Below are positions 5,752-37,200 of a DNA stretch of 64,000 nucleotides, piece by piece. A program made the translations under genes and the position numbers. The DNA is taken from the NCBI RefSeq assembly GCF_004342905.1, contig NZ_SMAN01000018.1:1-64000 (forward strand). The letters are read 5' to 3'. Below the pieces are notes generated by a model. That model was not told the DNA's origin. It was given only the letters and a program-made list of their open reading frames with translations, and did no database searches. The stretch's first letter is position 1; each line of letters begins with the position of its first letter. The stretch is from Melghiribacillus thermohalophilus. GTDB taxonomy: Bacteria; Bacillota; Bacilli; Bacillales; Alkalibacillaceae.

Positions 5752-8465
<2,714 letters not shown>

Positions 8466-9091: not shown

Positions 9092-9301
9092 ATGAAAAAC
9101 AGAATCAAAGAATTCAGAGAAAAAAATGAGCTTTCCCAGGGAAAACTGGCCGAATTATGCCAGGTGAGCAGGCAAACCATTAATGCCATCGAAAATGACA
9201 AATACGACCCCAGTTTAAAACTAGCATTTGATCTTGCCAGACAGTTAGGGGTCAAGATGGAGGAGTTATTTCTACCAGAGGGAGGGAGACAGAATGAGTA
9301 G
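9092..9301 (+). CDS. XRE-family transcription regulator, 69 aa
   Basis: A pure helix-turn-helix protein of the common YgzD/YvaO-like class. KNRIKEFREKNELSQGKLAE forms the first helices, CQVSRQTINAIENDKYDPS the recognition helix, and LKLAFDLARQLGVKMEELFL the closing part. It binds DNA as a dimer and normally controls its own operon. ATG 9092 follows GGTGGTGAG. It overlaps the next gene by 8 bases, so the pair is translationally coupled, the usual arrangement of an XRE regulator with a small membrane protein. Confidence 0.9.
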   Translation: MKNRIKEFREKNELSQGKLAELCQVSRQTINAIENDKYDPSLKLAFDLARQLGVKMEELFLPEGGRQNE

Positions 9302-9689
9302 AACAAGAAACATGATTGCTGTGATTGCCTTTCTTGCGTTTGCCGTGATCGCAGGATTCACGATCTACAAATATGTGAGATATGGAATCGTTGAAGGGGG
9401 AGGGATATTTGCAAGCAGTCTGGCTGTATCCTACTTTTTGAATTGGGTGAAATGGGGCGATCATGAAGGGGGAGGAGAAAAGGATGAATTAGACAGGCAC
9501 ATTGAAACCCAGAGCGCCAAAATCGGTTATTTTCTGCTGATGATCCTGGCAGCACTTATTTTATTTATCTCAGAAGGGGTAACCAATCTGAACGATATTC
9601 AAAATTACCCATTGCTGCTTGTCGTTAGCCTATCGTTTGTGATCCTTCCCATAACAGAGCTGATCTATTCCAGAAAGTTTAAATCATAA
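9294..9689 (+). CDS. Small membrane protein paired with an XRE regulator
   Basis: 131 aa with four predicted membrane segments (~8-26, ~34-50, ~75-93, ~103-120) and a charged loop GDHEGGGEKDELDRHIETQ. It overlaps the XRE gene by 8 bases. I know no activity for this family. Its last codons and terminator are duplicated 4.9 kb downstream at 14536-14589, on the far side of the bacteriocin island; the far copy would encode IYHRKFKS and stop where this gene has IYSRKFKS and stop. Confidence 0.8.
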   Translation: MSRTRNMIAVIAFLAFAVIAGFTIYKYVRYGIVEGGGIFASSLAVSYFLNWVKWGDHEGGGEKDELDRHIETQSAKIGYFLLMILAALILFISEGVTNLNDIQNYPLLLVVSLSFVILPITELIYSRKFKS

Positions 9690-9724
9690 ACCCATGACAG
9701 AAAGCGATGTTTTCCTGTCAGTTT
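9671..9724 (+). repeat. Left copy of 54-bp direct repeat (gene 3' end plus terminator)
   Basis: It matches 14536-14589 at 53 of 54 positions by my count. It begins in the last codons of the membrane protein gene, includes its stop, and ends with the hairpin TGACAGAAA...TTTTCCTGTCA. The bacteriocin island lies between the two copies. A second, GC-rich hairpin (ACCCCTGG...CCAGGGGT, about 9739-9760) follows this copy only. Confidence 0.85.
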
Positions 9725-9725
9725 C

Positions 9726-10602
9726 ATGTTTTAGAAAACCCCTGGCTATGCCAGGGGTTCCGGAAAGCTTTTGGCGTGGGAAAAAAAGCCTCACTTCATG
9801 GTAAGGTATAGTAGGATATACGATATAGATTCCGATCAACACTTTCGTGTTAGAGCCTATCCATTTCTGTGGATTGAATGGCTTTAAAAACCACTCTGTG
9901 ATGACCCCGTATGTAACGGATATATCGTCGATGGATTTCCCCCAAGAACACCATCGCCAGCTCAGTATGTTGTTTTTGATGAATAAATTTACGACAATTT
10001 CAATTTCCCCCTTACTTTCTTTGTCGGACTTCCGACACATGTAATGCTGAAGTTTTCTTTCCTGTCGGTAGGCTTGAACATCATTCGTTAAGATTAAGTC
10101 TCCGGATGTTCGCTAACCAAAATTAACGAATCCTCCATACGTAATTCCTAAATTTGAGAGGCCAAATCCGGATGTTCACTCAACCAGGTTTGGATTACCA
10201 TTTCATAGGAGTCCATCTTCTGCTTTCTCGTTTTCGTAGAGGCCATCCATTCACTCATCTCCACCTGGGATTATTTATAAACGGTAGTCCTGGATATTCA
10301 TAACTTTCGAGCGATCTGTCGGACACGGAATTCTTGTTGCTTCAACTGATAAATTGGCATATACATGTTCCACTATTCCACCCTTTTCACTCCATTACTG
10401 TGAGATAGCTAGCAACTCAAATTATATCAGTAACAGAGTTTGATTGAGTGTTCAGAGGAGAAGGTCATAAACAAGTGATCCTCTTTTAGCCCCCGTATTG
10501 TTAAGTGGAAAAGTGTTCATTATTATTTAGCGAAGTTGTCCATTTTAATTAGTAATTACAGATACAGCACTCATTATTTTGTAAAATAGTAAAAAGTTAC
10601 TA
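9726..10602. other. Gene-poor left part of the island
   Basis: No intact gene. A hairpin of the ACCCCTGG/CCAGGGGT type lies near 9739-9760. The 118-codon minus frame at 9684-10040 runs through this hairpin and the terminator repeat and looks accidental. The right half contains the IS21-type remnant described separately, and then A/T-rich sequence leads to the bacteriocin promoter. Confidence 0.5.
10090..10366 (-). mobile_element. Decayed N-terminus of an IS21-family IstA transposase
   Basis: The minus strand from 10366 reads MPIYQLKQQEFRVRQIARKL, a stop, ISRTTVYK, a frameshift, then EMSEWMASTKTRKQKMDSYE and IQTWLSEHPDL. This follows the start of IS21-type IstA proteins: a helix-turn-helix with the RTTVYK recognition helix, then DPYE...WLSEHPDL. 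At least two stops and one shift interrupt it, and the catalytic DDE part and istB are absent. I identify the family from remembered sequence, not a search. It marks past transposition at the left side of the bacteriocin island. Confidence 0.55.
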
Positions 10603-10644
10603 TTGGATAACCCGGGTAAAAATGTATAATTAAGGTAGTATAAT
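10603..10644 (+). promoter_or_regulatory. SigA-type promoter of the bacteriocin gene
   Basis: TTGGAT at 10603-10608 and a perfect TATAAT at 10625-10630 are separated by 16 bases. A second TATAAT at 10639-10644 could serve an alternative start. The ribosome site GGGAGGGG at 10663-10670 follows. Confidence 0.6.
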
Positions 10645-10679
10645 GTAAAATATTCCTTTTATGGGAGGGGGTGAGAGGT

Positions 10680-10982
10680 ATGGTTAATACATCTGTTCAT
10701 TCTAGAGTTATTTCTATCATATCTCTACTAACTATTACATTATCTATTACAGTGATTTTAGTATTTTTAGGGACTTCTTCTACAATGCCGCTGGTGGAGT
10801 TAACTGCTACGTATCCATGGTTGCCGAATTGGGCTATCACTTCAATAACTTGGGTGTTAAATGGAATCGCAACCGCAAGTGCTGTAGCAGCCATTCTAGG
10901 AACTTTTGGGCTTGCTGCAATTGCATCATTAGTAGTTAGTTATGCAAGGCGTTATGGCGTTAGATATGCAATTGCATGGTAA
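10680..10982 (+). CDS. Circular bacteriocin precursor, circularin A/AS-48 class
   Basis: A 100-residue, very hydrophobic peptide. Its C-terminal part (TASAVAAILGTFGLAAIASL, then a basic helix with YARRYGVRYAIAW) matches the pattern of head-to-tail cyclised bacteriocins such as amylocyclicin (...KKYGKKYAAAW) and AS-48 (...KRAVIAW): helices of small hydrophobic residues, then a cationic helix ending in aromatic/aliphatic residues and Trp. An N-terminal leader of about 35-40 residues would be removed before the new N-terminus is joined to Trp100; the cleavage site is not certain. Four Trp residues are unusual. ATG 10680 lies 9 bases from GGGAGGGG; GTG 10671 is too close. The genes downstream are those expected for maturation, export and immunity. 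Confidence 0.82.
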   Translation: MVNTSVHSRVISIISLLTITLSITVILVFLGTSSTMPLVELTATYPWLPNWAITSITWVLNGIATASAVAAILGTFGLAAIASLVVSYARRYGVRYAIAW

Positions 10983-10998
10983 AATAAACACAATAGAT

Positions 10999-11057
10999 AA
11001 AGCGAGCATGATTGGATTTGGATGTGAATAATTCCTCCTTAATATCGTGCTCGCTTT
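10999..11057 (+). terminator. Long-loop hairpin after the bacteriocin gene
   Basis: AAAGCGAGCATGA at 10999-11011 pairs with TCGTGCTCGCTTT at 11045-11057 (12 of 13 bases). It lies 16 bases after the precursor stop. In such clusters a partial terminator here would let the precursor be made in excess over the transport genes; that role is inferred. Confidence 0.6.
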
Positions 11058-11213
11058 CCTAATCATATTATTCCTTGATTATTCTTATGAAATCTTAAAT
11101 CGATCGTTTGTGGTAAATAAATATATATTCAGATATTAATTCAAGTAGATTTTAAGACTTCACTTTTATCTTTACAAAAAACTAAAATTACATTAAACGA
11201 AAGGCGCTTCAAT

Positions 11214-12680
11214 ATGAAAAAACTTATAATCTATATGATTTTGTCTGCTAAAAATTTAATACAACAGTTGGAAGGAAAAAAGAAAAGAAATCTTAGTGTT
11301 TTTTTTCTAATTGTAAATGCTATTGTTATTCCTGTAGCGTTCGGGATGATTTTGTATCCTGTCTTAAAATTTCACAGTGGTTTGTTTCTTTTAATACCAA
11401 TAATTGTAATCCTATTGGACATAGATAAAGCAGTATATCGAGTCAAATATTCCGAGGATATGAAGCAGTTACATAACTTAAAATTTTCATTGTTTGAGTA
11501 TATTATTGCAAAAGATTTAAGTAAATATTACACCCGTATCACATTTATATTTATGTTTCTGTTGTCATTTTTTATGTTAAGAATTGTTAATCATGATATA
11601 CCAATAACGGTTATATCACTAGAAATGATATCCTTTATCATGCTTCTCATGATCGGTTATTGCATGCGTATATATTTTATACTTTTTTTATCTTTGTTCT
11701 ATAAAGTTTATGTTTTAAGTATATTTAATTATTTTTTATTAGGATCTGTTTCCTTTTTTCTCTATTTAAATTATAAATTTCATATTTTTAGCACTCAATA
11801 TCTCCAACACCCTATCTTGTATAACATCCTTGCTCTTACATTATATCTTATAATTTTATGGCTGATTCGATTGCCTTTTCGCCACCTTCATAGAACCTCC
11901 ATTCAACAAATATATGACTCTCATAAATCAACAGTTCTTTTTAAGAGACGTGGTTTAGATCATAAAAGTGTAATCAGTAATAGTAAAGTTAAATATGAGT
12001 TATTGTTATTGATAAGAAATCCACCAGTAAGCATAGGAGTAATTTTGCTCATGGTAGCATTATCTATGGGATTATTTGGTGTTATGATCTTTATTATTGA
12101 AAATAACAATGATTTTACAAATTATAAAAACTCAGCATTAGCTTACCCGCTGGTCATGTTACCAGGAATTATAACGAGTTATATGATCCAACCTTTTGTA
12201 AGCTTTGATTTGGATGGGAAAATGATGCAACTAAAAAAAAATAACGACGTATTTATTTTAAATAAAATTGTAGTCAAAGAAATTATATCTTTAATTTTTA
12301 ATCTGATTTTGTTTGGTATTTATTTAACATTGACACTGCTATTTTTAAAAAAACCATTTAGTCTACTTAGTATGATTATAGTGTTCTTTTCGTATGTTTT
12401 GATCTCAATTTCAATTGTTACGTCTACAATAGCATTTCCTAACTTTAAGTGGAACTTTTTTTATGAAATCCCTTCTACACTTAGCAAAATATTATTGGCG
12501 GTTGTTCTAGGTGGTATTTTATTGATAGGAATTGCTGGGGTATTAGCTGATGGTTATTTTTCAATTCTTGTTATAATTACACAAATTATTTTAATTATCT
12601 TTCTTTTAATGATTAATCGGTCTCTCTGGAAAAAAACCATTCATAAAAATTTCTTTTCATTTCGACTGTTAAGGGAGTAG
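11214..12680 (+). CDS. Large membrane protein of the bacteriocin cluster (B-type component)
   Basis: 488 aa with about twelve hydrophobic segments over the whole length and a basic loop around residues 225-260 (FRHLHRTSIQQIYD...KRRGLDHKSV). It has no enzymatic motif. Position and size match the large polytopic proteins next to AS-48, circularin and amylocyclicin precursors, which are needed for maturation or secretion and in some cases thought to aid cyclisation. It could also be the permease for the ATPase in the next gene, 6 bases downstream. ATG 11214 follows GAAAGGCG. The gene is very A/T-rich compared with its chromosomal neighbours. Confidence 0.7.
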   Translation: MKKLIIYMILSAKNLIQQLEGKKKRNLSVFFLIVNAIVIPVAFGMILYPVLKFHSGLFLLIPIIVILLDIDKAVYRVKYSEDMKQLHNLKFSLFEYIIAKDLSKYYTRITFIFMFLLSFFMLRIVNHDIPITVISLEMISFIMLLMIGYCMRIYFILFLSLFYKVYVLSIFNYFLLGSVSFFLYLNYKFHIFSTQYLQHPILYNILALTLYLIILWLIRLPFRHLHRTSIQQIYDSHKSTVLFKRRGLDHKSVISNSKVKYELLLLIRNPPVSIGVILLMVALSMGLFGVMIFIIENNNDFTNYKNSALAYPLVMLPGIITSYMIQPFVSFDLDGKMMQLKKNNDVFILNKIVVKEIISLIFNLILFGIYLTLTLLFLKKPFSLLSMIIVFFSYVLISISIVTSTIAFPNFKWNFFYEIPSTLSKILLAVVLGGILLIGIAGVLADGYFSILVIITQIILIIFLLMINRSLWKKTIHKNFFSFRLLRE

Positions 12681-12686
12681 AAAGTT

Positions 12687-13367
12687 ATGTTAAAAATAAG
12701 AAATATTACAAAGCAATACGACAACATATATGCGTTAAACCAGGTTAATGTAACTATTTCTAGCGCAGAAATAGTTGGAATTATTGGAAGAAATGGAGCT
12801 GGGAAAACGACTTTTTTAGAAATTATTGCTGGACTGGTTGAACCTACACGAGGAGAAATTGTCATAAATAATAAAAAAAATTTTGATCAAAAACTCATTG
12901 GATATCTGGAGGATGATCCATTCTTTTATGAGTATCTAACAGTCAAAGAAGTTATTCATTACTTTTCCTTAATGCAAAATCTATCGATATCTTCCGATGT
13001 ATCAGATCAACTACTAAAAGAATATAGGTTGTTGGATAAAAAAGATTATAAGATTAAAGACTTATCCAGAGGAATGAAGCAGAAGCTAGGGTTTTTATTA
13101 ACAATACTTCATGATCCAGAGATATTGTTATTAGATGAACCATTTACTGGTCTAGATCCAACTAATTTAATATCAATGAAAAAAAAATTAAATGAATTAA
13201 AAGATCGGGGGAAAACAATTATTATCTCAACTCACATATTATCCTTTGCATCTGATATTTGTGATCGTATTTTGTTGTTGGACAGAGGTGAAATTAAATA
13301 CGAAGCTGAAGGTCAAAATTTAAATGAGAAAAAACTGGAGGCTTTATTTAGTGAATACATTAAATAA
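12687..13367 (+). CDS. ABC transporter ATPase of the bacteriocin cluster
   Basis: 226 aa, complete nucleotide-binding domain: Walker A GRNGAGKTT (~35-43), signature LSRGMKQKLG (~130), Walker B ILLLDEPFTGLD (~150), and the H-loop ISTHIL. It belongs to the CcmA-like class that pairs with separate permeases. It lies 6 bases after the large membrane protein and overlaps the SpoIIM-type gene. In circular bacteriocin clusters such ATPases serve export and/or producer self-protection; which one applies here cannot be seen. Low GC like the rest of the island. Confidence 0.92.
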   Translation: MLKIRNITKQYDNIYALNQVNVTISSAEIVGIIGRNGAGKTTFLEIIAGLVEPTRGEIVINNKKNFDQKLIGYLEDDPFFYEYLTVKEVIHYFSLMQNLSISSDVSDQLLKEYRLLDKKDYKIKDLSRGMKQKLGFLLTILHDPEILLLDEPFTGLDPTNLISMKKKLNELKDRGKTIIISTHILSFASDICDRILLLDRGEIKYEAEGQNLNEKKLEALFSEYIK

Positions 13368-13878
13368 AATAATAAAGATAAAAAATTTAATACTAATATA
13401 TTTTTTGTTGTTTTTTATAGGTTTTTTTTTGAGTTTAATGTTTTTACCTGAAAGTTACGACTTAAGTGAAAATATTACAGATATTTCCTCTTTCATGGAT
13501 GTTTTTCTATATAATCTCAAAGTAGCATTAGTAATCATCATAACTGGTATATTTAGTGTGGGCCTAATATCCTCATTTATCGTATTTTTTAATGGTCTAT
13601 ATTTCGGGTATTTTTTCTTTTCTAATATGCCCTTTCTTGAACCGCTACATTTTATTGCTCTATTCATATTTCATGGACCTTTTGAGATAGTAGGACTGTC
13701 TATCGGCTATGCATTATCAATTTTAATTCCTTGGTCAATCATAAAAACAATATGGAAACATGATTTTCAAATAAAAACGGGGACAGCAAGGAAATTCCTA
13801 ATCTACTACACATTCCACATTTTGTTATTGTTTATCTCAGGAATTATAGAATATTTTGTAATTACCCATTATAAGTAA
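13351..13878 (+). CDS. SpoIIM/DUF95-family membrane protein of the bacteriocin cluster
   Basis: 175 aa, about five membrane segments, with the SpoIIM/DUF95 hallmark HGPFEIVGL (~residues 108-116; typically HG.fEi). This family is a near-constant companion of circular bacteriocins (As-48C1, AcnC, CirC types) and is implicated in immunity and maturation. The open frame begins at 13324, but GTG 13351 has GGAGG at 13337-13341 nine bases upstream; this start overlaps the end of the ATPase gene by 17 bases, indicating coupled translation. Confidence 0.82.
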   Translation: MNTLNKIIKIKNLILIYFLLFFIGFFLSLMFLPESYDLSENITDISSFMDVFLYNLKVALVIIITGIFSVGLISSFIVFFNGLYFGYFFFSNMPFLEPLHFIALFIFHGPFEIVGLSIGYALSILIPWSIIKTIWKHDFQIKTGTARKFLIYYTFHILLLFISGIIEYFVITHYK

Positions 13879-13967
13879 AATTGTCATATCGATGGTCCTG
13901 GTTAAATTATTGGTAAGGTTAACAAAGCATTATATTTGAAAAGTTTACTATTTCAGAGGTGGTAATA

Positions 13968-14510
13968 TTGAAAAACAGTTATAAAGTTCATCTGCTAGTC
14001 ATCTGCTTTTTATCTGCAATTATTTCTCTTATTGCATCTTTAAATGTTGATAATGAAATTCAACAAGAAATGATAAATACTTTTAATGAATTTGAGGATT
14101 CCCAAAAAATTATCAAATTATCCTATTGGATAGGAATTATATTGGGTACATTATTTTCATTTTTTCAACCAGTTTTGGTTTTAGGTTTTTTAACATTATT
14201 ATTATGGCTATTTATTATGGTGAATAATTCAAGTCTTAAATTTAGGAGTCTCTTTCAAAATGGTATTAAACCATATTATGTGATTTTAATAGGGCAAGTT
14301 ATAACTTTTTGGATTATTCTCCCTTTTGATTTGAAAATGGTTATTCAATATAATATTCATTCTATTACATATACATTTTTCTTTTTGTTAGGATGGTGGC
14401 GAAACTGCCATAAGAGTTACGAACAACTTAAAAAAAACATCAATTTTGCTTTTATAGGTACAGTTGGAATGATAATATTATTCACAAGCATAAGTTATTC
14501 TATAATATAA
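13968..14510 (+). CDS. Small polytopic membrane protein, last gene of the bacteriocin cluster
   Basis: 180 aa with about five membrane segments. The order of helices and a short amphipathic N-terminal stretch are reminiscent of Yip1-type proteins, but I do not claim membership. TTG 13968 follows AGAGGTGG at 13955-13962; GTG 13959 would overlap that site. It may supply immunity or an accessory transport function. I found no separate small cationic immunity peptide in the 89-base gap before it, so immunity probably rests on this protein or on the ATPase/SpoIIM pair. Confidence 0.55.
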   Translation: MKNSYKVHLLVICFLSAIISLIASLNVDNEIQQEMINTFNEFEDSQKIIKLSYWIGIILGTLFSFFQPVLVLGFLTLLLWLFIMVNNSSLKFRSLFQNGIKPYYVILIGQVITFWIILPFDLKMVIQYNIHSITYTFFFLLGWWRNCHKSYEQLKKNINFAFIGTVGMIILFTSISYSII

Positions 14511-14535
14511 CCTAATTAAACTAAGTCATCTATCA

Positions 14536-14589
14536 CAGAAAGTTTAAATCATAAACCCATGACAGGAAGCGATGTTTTCCTGTCAGTTT
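14536..14589 (+). repeat. Right copy of 54-bp direct repeat flanking the bacteriocin island
   Basis: Same sequence as 9671-9724 apart from one A-to-G change (14566). It retains stop-codon context (AGAAAGTTTAAATCATAA) and the hairpin TGACAGGAA...TTCCTGTCA, so it also serves as terminator for the last island gene. Upstream similarity to the left copy continues imperfectly for about ten more bases (ATCTAT). Confidence 0.85.
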
Positions 14590-26019: not shown

Positions 26020-26189
26020 AACAAGCGCTCCTTTTTGATATCTTTACTTTAATTTATCATATCATGCCATTATTACGAATTCGAGATATTTGTTTTTGAG
26101 ATAAATTCAGATAAGCATTTATGTAGAATTGTGGTAAAACGCTGTGAGCATCTCACAAAAGTTTGATCAGCATAGTTAATCAAGGAAAT

Positions 26190-26455
26190 TTGGGACTTGA
26201 CAGAAAAATCAGGGCTCGCGAGCGGGAAATCAGGGTTCACGCACGAGGAATCAGGGCTCGCGAACGGGAAATCAGGGTTCACGCACGAGGAATCAGGGCT
26301 CGCGAACGGGAAATCAGGGTTTACGCACGAGATATCAGGACTCGCGCGGGAGAAATTAGTGTTCACGCACGAGATATCAGGGTTCACGTGGAAGATATCA
26401 GGACTCGCACGCAGGATATATGGATTCATCCCAAGCAAATGAGGACTCTAACGCG
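26190..26455 (+). repeat. Array 1 of a degenerate 21-bp tandem repeat (about 12 units)
   Basis: Units of exactly 21 bases follow one another without spacers; the consensus is close to AATCAGGGCTCGCGAACGGGA alternating with AATCAGGGTTCACGCACGAGG. Regularity is best at 26205-26330 and fades to the right. Because 21 is a multiple of three, several frames stay open on both strands (for example IRVHARGIRARERE), but no frame has a ribosome site, so I treat it as non-coding. It sits directly after the NERD gene stop. Confidence 0.9.
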
Positions 26456-31727: not shown

Positions 31728-32085
31728 TTTTATGCGCGAGTCCTGATTTTACATGCGCGAGCTCTGATTCTTCGTGTGTGAACCCTGATTACGTGCGCGT
31801 CAGTCCTGATCTTCGCGCTTGATCTCTGATTCTTCGTGCATGAACCCTGGTATTTCGTGCACGAGTCCTGATATCTGATGAGCGAGCCCTGATTTCGCGC
31901 GCGTGAGCCCTGAATTCTGGCATGTGAACCCTGATTTTGCACCCGTGAACTCTGATATTTCGAGGCTGAGCCCTGATTTCTGACATGCGAGCCCTGATAT
32001 TTCGAGGCTGAGCCCTGATTTCTGACAAGCAATTTCTGATTTCTTCAAGGTGAAACCTGATTCTTTACGTGCGAACCCCGAAGAA
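31728..32085 (-). repeat. Array 3 of the 21-bp repeat (about 17 units, inverted)
   Basis: Read on the plus strand the unit is near CCCTGATTTCTGACATGCGAG or CCCTGATATTTCGAGGCTGAG, that is, the complement of the unit in arrays 1 and 2. The 21-base step is kept over most of the array. Several frames stay open; none has a start with a ribosome site. It lies between the Mn-catalase gene and a small hydrophilic protein gene, and the stretch 31551-31727 before it holds no gene. Confidence 0.9.
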
Positions 32086-36006: not shown

Positions 36007-37200
36007 CTAAAGGGCTAACTGCTTCTGAAACATTTTTGTCAGAAAGATGATTACTAAAGTGATGAGAAGCAGGGCAGCGAAGATGAGATAAATAAAATGA
36101 ACACCAAAATTGGCAGCGAATAAGCCGGTTAACAATGAGGATGTGACTTTAACTGCTGATGCAAGGATCGTTCTGACGCCTATAACTCTTCCAATCATCT
36201 CATGGGATGAACGTAATTGAATATATGTGTGCGAGACGATTAAATGCCCCGTTACAAAGACCCCAAACAGAAATAGCATCAGAACGGCAATGGCCGCATT
36301 ATGATTGATGGAAATGACAATGGATGTGCCCATCATTCCCGCAACGGTACTAATGAACACGCCTTTTGGCTGCTTTTTTAAAATGATCCCCAGTATTAGA
36401 CCAGCTGCTATCCCCCCTGCGGTAAAAGTGATATCAAGGATTGCATAAAAACTTCCCTCTCCTCCTAGTTGGTAAGCCAGTGCAGGTAAGACGGTGATGG
36501 TGAGTTGTAGGCCAAAGCTTCCTAAGACGGATATCAACAGCAATCATTTGAGATCAGGCTTAGATTTAATATATTGGATACCTTCCGCAATCATGGAGCG
36601 ATAAGTATGATGGTTGATCGTTTTTTCAGGATTCGCAACCAATGATATATAACGGAACAGTAGGCCTGTCAGCACAAATGATATACCATTCAGTCCGATG
36701 GTAATGCTTACAGGTAAAATTGTAATCAAGTATCCAGCTAGCCCTGTTCCCAGAATATACCCGACTTGTTCGAGAGAATTGGAAAGTGCCATGATTGATG
36801 GGATTTCTTTTCTGTAAAAGCTGTGCTTAATAAAACGCTGTGAAGCTGGTTTATAAATCGTATAAAGAATTGCCATGATCCATTGAAATAGATACAGTAG
36901 ATAAAGACTGCTGACTTCAAACCAGATGACAAGTGCCAGGATCAAAACGGCAATCCCTCGAAAGAAGTTGACGATGATCGTTAGTCGTTTAGGGTGGATC
37001 AGGTCGGAAAGAGCACCTGCAAATGGTGACAGCCCCATAGATGGCAGATAATAAATAGCAATCATGATCCCAATGGATAAAGGGCTGCCTGTAAGGGTGT
37101 AAATATACCAGTACAAAGCGATTTGCTGCATCCCATCTCCCATATTCGATATCAATTGAGCGTTCGTATACAAAATTTTTCGCATGATTATCCTCTCCAA
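36007..37200 (-). pseudogene. MFS transporter interrupted by one in-frame TGA
   Basis: The minus strand encodes a continuous MFS protein of about 397 codons except for TGA at 36546-36544, between IQYIKSKPDLK and LLLISVLGSFGL; both sides are in the same frame and together give the normal twelve segments. DLIHPKRLTIIV (~74) is the loop motif. One base change (for example CGA or TGG to TGA) suffices to explain it. Reinitiation at the TTG directly after the stop would give a half transporter. True start is ATG 37185 (MRKILYTNAQL, GGAGAGGATAATC upstream) or 37200. Confidence 0.8.

Follow-up and report, generated by a model that had tools for sequence, protein, structure and literature searches.

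The window analyzed here, the whole 64,000-nucleotide stretch of a Melghiribacillus thermohalophilus contig (NZ_SMAN01000018.1), carries five intact open reading frames (ORFs) in the order precursor peptide, large membrane protein, ATP-binding cassette (ABC) ATPase, SpoIIM protein, and small membrane protein. We read positions 10680 to 14510 as an intact pathway for a head-to-tail cyclized bacteriocin of a new subfamily, lying in foreign DNA with a duplicated gene tail, and give this reading a probability of about 0.78. A sequence-only reading had earlier proposed the complete gene set in this order, and the five intact frames bear it out, with SpoIIM and ABC_tran both over the Pfam cutoffs. 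In the features listed below, genomes carry the handle G and loci the handle L; IS stands for insertion sequence, and aa for amino acids.

9294 to 9689, plus strand: host gene, an ORF for a 131-aa membrane protein, whose 3' tail is duplicated; weak DUF6442 match, under the Pfam cutoff.
9671 to 9724, plus strand: left copy, X, of the gene tail and terminator hairpin, with one stem pair lost.
9722 to 9815, no strand assigned: left-end relic of a presumed IS200-type element, 94% and 92% identical to two other places in the assembly.
9880 to 10393, minus strand: presumed istA relic of an IS21-type element, interrupted by stops and frameshifts and shortened by internal deletions, found by tblastn with the intact protein of a relative (G005).
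10510 to 10560, no strand assigned: terminal end of the presumed IS21-type element, 77% identical to sequence adjoining the intact element of G005.
10663 to 10671, plus strand: sequence resembling a ribosome-binding site, GGGAGGGGG, ahead of the precursor ATG.
10680 to 10982, plus strand: gene A, the 100-aa precursor, with proposed leader 1 to 40 and core L41 to W100.
10800 to 10979, plus strand: proposed 60-aa core, its start deduced from the step in conservation and from the invariant Leu.
10999 to 11057, plus strand: predicted mRNA hairpin between A and B, with a 14-pair stem (fold −24.7 kcal/mol, z −4.0).
11214 to 12680, plus strand: gene B, a 488-aa membrane protein, 29 to 33% identical to B of related clusters.
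12687 to 13367, plus strand: gene D, an ABC-transporter ATPase (PF00005 ABC_tran, E 1e-27, passing the Pfam cutoff), 45% identical to its counterpart in the related cluster L010.
13351 to 13878, plus strand: gene C, a SpoIIM/DUF95 protein (PF01944, E 6.9e-16, passing the Pfam cutoff), 38% identical to that of L010.
13959 to 14510, plus strand: gene E, a small membrane protein, probably for immunity, 34% identical over 117 residues to that of L010.
14536 to 14589, plus strand: right copy, X', of the gene tail and terminator, with a perfect stem.

The start codon of gene A was picked by the ribosome-binding-site-like sequence. Gene B has no Pfam or NCBIfam match above cutoff, and its AlphaFold2 model is poor (predicted local distance difference test score [pLDDT], 48.7). 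The best NCBIfam match of gene D is the lantibiotic-protection ATPase TIGR03740 (E 3.1e-50, under its cutoff), and gene E matches YknW_fam (E 4.4e-6, likewise under its cutoff); YknW is part of a Bacillus subtilis toxin-protection operon. Hairpins of differing sequence also stand between A and B in the related clusters L026 (8289 to 8362) and L027 (8193 to 8260), and in all three clusters folded the hairpin is without a T-run. It may act as a stabilizer of the precursor mRNA, while the terminator in X' may also serve as the operon end.

The precursor contains four Trp residues, at positions 47, 51, 58, and 100, the number that the sequence-only reading had counted. When the window precursor was compared with four relatives, two of which (L025 and L026) are nearly one locus, the core was identical at 37 to 39 of 60 positions (62 to 65%) and the leader at 8 to 9 of 37 (22 to 24%) in all four. 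This step from a variable leader to the conserved last 60 residues places the core at L41 to W100. All five rows open the core with Leu and close it with W, Y, or F; in the window it begins LTATY and ends AIAW. For the core we calculated a cyclic mass of 6396.4 Da, a pI of 10.0, and a charge of about +3. The precursor frame picked out earlier is thus present in related clusters, with its core conserved and its leader variable.

The block lies between two near-identical 54-bp sequences, as had been noted before, and their likeness is far above that of shuffled flanks. Positions 9671 to 9724 and 14536 to 14589 differ by a single mismatch (53/54 identical), and a longer form of the repeat, 9663 to 9724 against 14528 to 14589, has 3 mismatches (59/62 identical). 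Local alignment of the flanks scored 110; the best of 100 shuffles reached 28. The repeat comprises the final codons of ORF 9294 to 9689 and a hairpin terminator, and a query with positions 9663 to 9760 found no third copy in the assembly itself at E ≤ 0.001. Homologs of the tail gene occur in 7 of 40 genomes, its own included. The G+C content is 40% in the IS-relic part (9725 to 10560), 38% in the precursor gene, 25 to 29% in the other four genes, and 41 to 42% in the host flanks. The A/T-rich block of 4.8 kb described in the sequence-only reading therefore stands for its right four-fifths; low G+C is confined to the last four genes, and so the A/T-rich stretch is shorter than stated. The evidence favors a block of foreign DNA directly behind the host gene, with the gene tail and terminator on either side.

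At the left border, two decayed insertion sequences adjoin the intact bacteriocin genes. The istA relic matches residues 2 to 86, 217 to 265, and 415 to 445 of an intact 522-aa protein in G005, which confirms on the minus strand the decayed IS21-type transposase reported earlier. In G005 this intact IstA adjoins a 266-aa IstB-like protein, and comparison with the intact element gave no istB match in the relic. The terminal end at 10510 to 10560 is also 84% identical to an isolated fragment on contig C3. The second relic, at 9722 to 9815, had been overlooked; both of its copies elsewhere in the assembly adjoin an ORF beginning with, or containing, MKDKNSLAHTTWNCKYHIVFAPKYRRQ. The names IstA, IstB, and IS21 are presumed, as is the IS200 type, which was taken from the neighboring transposase protein.

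The same five genes in the same order were found in G063 (L010), Bacillus haynesii (L026), and Bacillus stratosphericus (L027), with proteins 29 to 49% identical to those of the window over the main alignments. G063 and a further genome that carries the cluster, G679, belong to Bacillus too. A fifth precursor stands on contig L025, which carries A, B, and D and runs out partway through C; this contig was filed under a Robertmurraya metagenome-assembled genome, but its neighbors equal those of B. haynesii and it is probably misbinned. Flanking genes are called pheT, srfAD, sfp, rnhC, EamA, and lipoprotein in what follows, names that are presumed, having been assigned by eye. Unlike the window cluster, L026, L027, and L010 occupy other chromosomal sites, presumably pheT, sfp, and srfAD, respectively, and their cores end in Y or F. 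Of 299 genomes of the order, 3 gave a match to protein B, its own among them; one of the three was dropped as spurious. Two short patterns from two precursors, run against the species-genome collection, hit 48 stretches and led to 3 relatives (B. haynesii, B. stratosphericus, and the Robertmurraya contig). The five-precursor profile matched 3 of 398 genomes of the class, its own and G063 included, the third match being weak, and the B profile matched 7 of 44 genomes in the genus of G063, with G705 holding a broken fragment and G683 a weak match (E 2.2e-5). The G683 match and a precursor-profile match in G565 (E 8.0e-4) were left aside. A precursor match in G003 (E 5.7e-4) was dropped, as it sits in what by eye is a sigma-factor/primase region, and one in G163 (E 7.7e-4) was dropped for its internal stops; around the latter only the ABC gene matched.

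Comparison with known circular bacteriocins relies in part on published work. The circularity of altitudin A was demonstrated by mass loss and a junction peptide, and its genes altA to altE encode the precursor, a membrane protein, an ABC protein, a SpoIIM protein, and an immunity protein (PMC10888436); the window has this same gene set. Altitudin A has also been made by cell-free synthesis with split-intein ligation (PMC10888436). Genome-mining papers take as a minimum set a precursor, a SpoIIM protein, and an ATP-binding or transporter protein (PMC8659200; PMC8534725; a further mining paper is PMC7132975); these three components occur together in the window. Safencin E (PMC7617318), pumilarin (PMC5695211), and flexusin A (PMC11943950) are reported to resemble other known groups. 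The window precursor fits the pattern of a variable leader followed by a conserved core that begins and ends with a hydrophobic residue. Like the NKR-5-3B/amylocyclicin/altitudin A group, it has a leader, a core, and an aromatic end after a basic stretch, and it is similar to NKR-5-3B at the C terminus; unlike that group, its core starts L-x-A-x-YP-x-x-P-x-WA and it falls under the TIGR03651 cutoff. The carnocyclin A peptide likewise has 60 residues and was the top PDB match of the precursor profile (E 0.49), but the alignment is restricted to its residues 14 to 59. In that search NKR-5-3B was third of the 5 matches listed (E 1.2), and with the single precursor as query it was first of the 2 listed (E 0.69). 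Shuffles of the window core reached the observed similarity to NKR-5-3B in 0 of 5,000 cases and that to carnocyclin A in 8 of 5,000; for the B. haynesii core the counts were 4 of 5,000 (NKR-5-3B), 0 of 5,000 (carnocyclin A), and 7 of 5,000 (flexusin A). No printed occurrence of any of four core words of the subfamily was found in open-access papers, and the Bacillus relatives may stand in the supplementary tables of the mining papers.

A number of results weigh against the assignment. Against TIGR03651, the circularin A/uberolysin model, the window precursor scores 8.2 bits (E 3.2) where the cutoff is 30.7, and PF09221, the AS-48-type model, gave no precursor match at E ≤ 1 or E ≤ 10 in a library whose inclusion of that model was unchecked. 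The comparison with circular-bacteriocin hidden Markov models that the sequence-only reading had put forward as a check was thus negative. None of the PDB matches is significant by itself; the window core is not significantly similar to flexusin A (378 of 5,000 shuffles); and the stretches compared with NKR-5-3B and carnocyclin A had been chosen by the profile search, so those shuffle tests are biased in favor. The AlphaFold2 model of the core, built from 3 sequences, is a single long helix (pLDDT, 72.9; predicted template modeling score, 0.40) and does not support a saposin-like fold. The precursor, B, and SpoIIM had no plasmid match, the precursor none in phages, and the precursor profile none in viral contigs. 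Promoter-like sites were not enriched (27, against 31.8 in shuffles), and the closest one listed upstream of A on its strand, 10498 to 10526, lies inside the IS21 end.

TIGR03651 matches three of the five precursors at E ≤ 10 (best E, 0.0057) and, run against the window's own genome, matches nothing at E ≤ 1e-4. Since the curated models reject it, the window precursor would belong to a divergent subfamily rather than being a plain member of the modeled family, and we read it as representing a new subfamily of putatively circular bacteriocins. What had been offered as a possible new member is supported in this form, as new, divergent, and below the curated cutoffs, and so is the proposal of a circular-bacteriocin set in foreign DNA with a duplicated gene tail, its circularity being predicted. 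The 100-aa precursor would carry a hydrophobic 40-aa leader and be cut ahead of Leu41, and the cationic, hydrophobic 60-residue core would be closed between Leu1 and Trp60, giving a ring of about 6396.4 Da. Maturation and export would fall to membrane protein B, the ABC ATPase, and the SpoIIM protein; E, and perhaps the ATPase too, would protect the producer; and the ring may permeabilize the membranes of related Gram-positive bacteria. Cleavage, cyclization, activity, and immunity are all predictions from the genes. The cluster might instead make a linear membrane-active or non-killing peptide, with SpoIIM taking no part in cyclization, an alternative to which the rejection by curated circular-bacteriocin models and the single-helix model of the core lend something, as does the predicted standing of cyclization itself. 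We consider it improbable, given the invariant Leu at the leader/core step and the aromatic last residue in all five rows, the similarity to NKR-5-3B that reaches the last residue of that peptide, and the joint presence of precursor, SpoIIM, and transporter that mining papers take as the minimum set (PMC8659200; PMC8534725).

The duplication of a gene tail recurs around related clusters, at pheT and, in diverged form, at srfAD; this recurrence is the new observation here. In G679 a lipoprotein-like gene comes first, then a copy of the tail and terminator of pheT (L061, 2250 to 2363), then the cluster, and last pheT with its own tail (6378 to 6491); the two tails are 93% identical over 114 bp. 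The displaced copy is identical to the B. haynesii pheT tail over all 114 bp, and the own pheT tail of G679 is 93% identical to it. In B. haynesii the left copy is trimmed to 67 to 72 bp and, by comparison with G679, was fused with the lipoprotein-like gene through a deletion. Four relatives (G682, G691, G294, and G130) have one pheT tail, no cluster there, and no B match; their ORF lists are without the lipoprotein-like gene, and so the upstream neighbor differs. The G063 cluster lies between srfAD and a convergent EamA-type gene. Among 13 loci compared, eight have these two genes separated by only about 45 bases; the remaining five comprise G063 itself, two partial clusters, a locus carrying some other insertion, and a rearranged locus. 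In junction alignments with five of the eight close-spaced loci, the far-side tail of G063 (7985 to 8075) was native-like in four and poorer in the fifth (L076), and srfAD itself has another tail. The two G063 tails have diverged (score 33, reached in 0 of 300 shuffles, with a shuffle maximum of 29), so that this case is weaker than those of the window and pheT. At the sfp site (L027) there was no tail repeat (61 of 300 shuffles). The arrangement gene-X-cluster-X' thus holds at three of the four sites with an intact cluster, the window included, and not at sfp. The sequence-only reading had put forward a search for the flank in cluster-free strains. Single-copy pheT and srfAD sites were found in relatives, and the window's own site was not seen empty, L028 and L029, two of the four loci fetched around tail-gene homologs, having none of the island's right-hand neighbors among their listed ORFs.

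The srfAD-EamA interval is a repeatedly used site. Remnants of other cluster versions occupy it in G694 (L089, 3269 to 5394) and G705 (L087, 4625 to 4936), with B 58% and 55% identical and, in G694, the ABC protein 74% identical. Neither partial cluster has a tail repeat: G694 scored no better than shuffles (276 of 300), and G705 had only a 17-base match (3 of 300). At the cluster-free srfAD site of G689 (L088, about 1630 to 1875), a short stretch lies between two terminator copies, another terminator-duplicating insertion.

How widely such repeats occur was surveyed at 20 of the loci listed in a TIGR03651 search (40 rows, about 30 distinct loci); the completeness of these clusters was not checked one by one, and two of the loci end at a contig end near the precursor. 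Of the 18 control stretches, 17 came from those same contigs, and G679 supplied the other. Strong direct repeats straddled 2 of the 20 circular-bacteriocin loci and 0 of the 18 controls, and the same test found them at 3 of the 5 loci of the present subfamily, which amount to only 2 of 4 sites because two loci lie at one site, pheT, and the test missed the diverged srfAD pair. Tail duplication is therefore frequent in this subfamily and rare elsewhere at this sensitivity. One of the two other cases (L133, in G760) has a 71-bp repeat, 7752 to 7822 against 11970 to 12038, 91.5% identical, made of a terminator-like hairpin and the last 12 bases of the neighboring gene. In L132, from the same genus as G760, the repeats are parts of a duplicated gene, not of a gene tail alone.

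As to the origin of the repeats, we lean tentatively, at rather less than even odds, toward a one-off repeat-making event followed by spread through homologous recombination in the gene. Each direct repeat would have come from the repair of a staggered break, with a long target duplication, or from integration with one-sided homology, and later spread between species would be ordinary homologous recombination through the flanking gene. The tails of two lineages meet at srfAD and at pheT, which speaks for such later exchange. The block in the window comprises the five genes plus two transposase relics, with no integrase or recombinase of its own among them. By eye no recombinase was recognized among the ORFs listed for the window, L010, L026, and L027, most of whose translations had been shortened to the first 110 to 160 residues and not all of which were profile-searched. 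A bolder and doubtful generalization is that this subfamily's clusters are cargo islands without a recombinase, entering by an undescribed mechanism at gene 3' ends that bear intrinsic terminators and each time keeping the gene whole, with a tail and terminator on both sides. As in islands at gene 3' ends and cis-mobilizable elements, foreign DNA in the window is bracketed by direct repeats of a gene 3' end, and the gene itself is whole. Unlike those islands, this subfamily has no recognized recombinase, and its repeats are unrelated from site to site.

The repeats might also be attachment sites, attL and attR, of a site-specific island that inserts at gene 3' ends and whose recombinase has been lost or, as for a cis-mobilizable element, works in trans. 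Just such a gene-X-insert-X' order with a whole gene is what integrases targeting gene 3' ends produce, the X hairpin forms an inverted repeat whose spacer is short, and the pattern is seen at three different genes. Yet the X segments at these genes look unrelated, so that one integrase can hardly serve all; three recombinases would be required and none was recognized, which makes this origin unlikely in our estimation. RecA-dependent single-crossover integration of a circle with one tail copy predicts direct repeats as long as the shared segment, and the meeting of two lineages' tails in G679, where the displaced copy is identical to the B. haynesii tail and the gene's own tail is 93% identical, agrees with it. 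The donor circle must, however, already carry the same gene tail, which accounts for spread at one site but not for the first landing at a new gene, and 54 to 62 bp is short for RecA; we do not expect this explanation to hold for the repeats. Movement of the cluster by the IS elements, as a composite transposon with an incidental repeat, is very improbable. The IS200-type and IS21-type relics at the left border would suit it, but no IS was found at the right border, and none was recognized among the ORFs listed for those related clusters that show the tail duplication. Neither the IS200 nor the IS21 family is known to make 54-bp target duplications.

Elsewhere in the window, a transporter-like gene on the minus strand at 36007 to 37200 is read as two neighboring ORFs, which a frameshift may have separated. 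The ORFs at 26073 to 26438 and 31730 to 32032 consist of short repeated peptide units (SPDISCVNPDF-like and NQGSASKYQGS-like, respectively) in tandem-repeat DNA and are probably not genes.

The cluster adds a subfamily of predicted circular bacteriocins that curated models overlook, with a precise mass to search for. The duplicated gene tail is not peculiar to one genome: it stands also at two other genes, with single-copy sites in relatives, and so the movement of bacteriocin clusters that lack a recombinase can be tested by comparing strains. Related blocks beside different genes, mostly with the gene end present twice, hint at an unexplained way for such gene sets to enter chromosomes.

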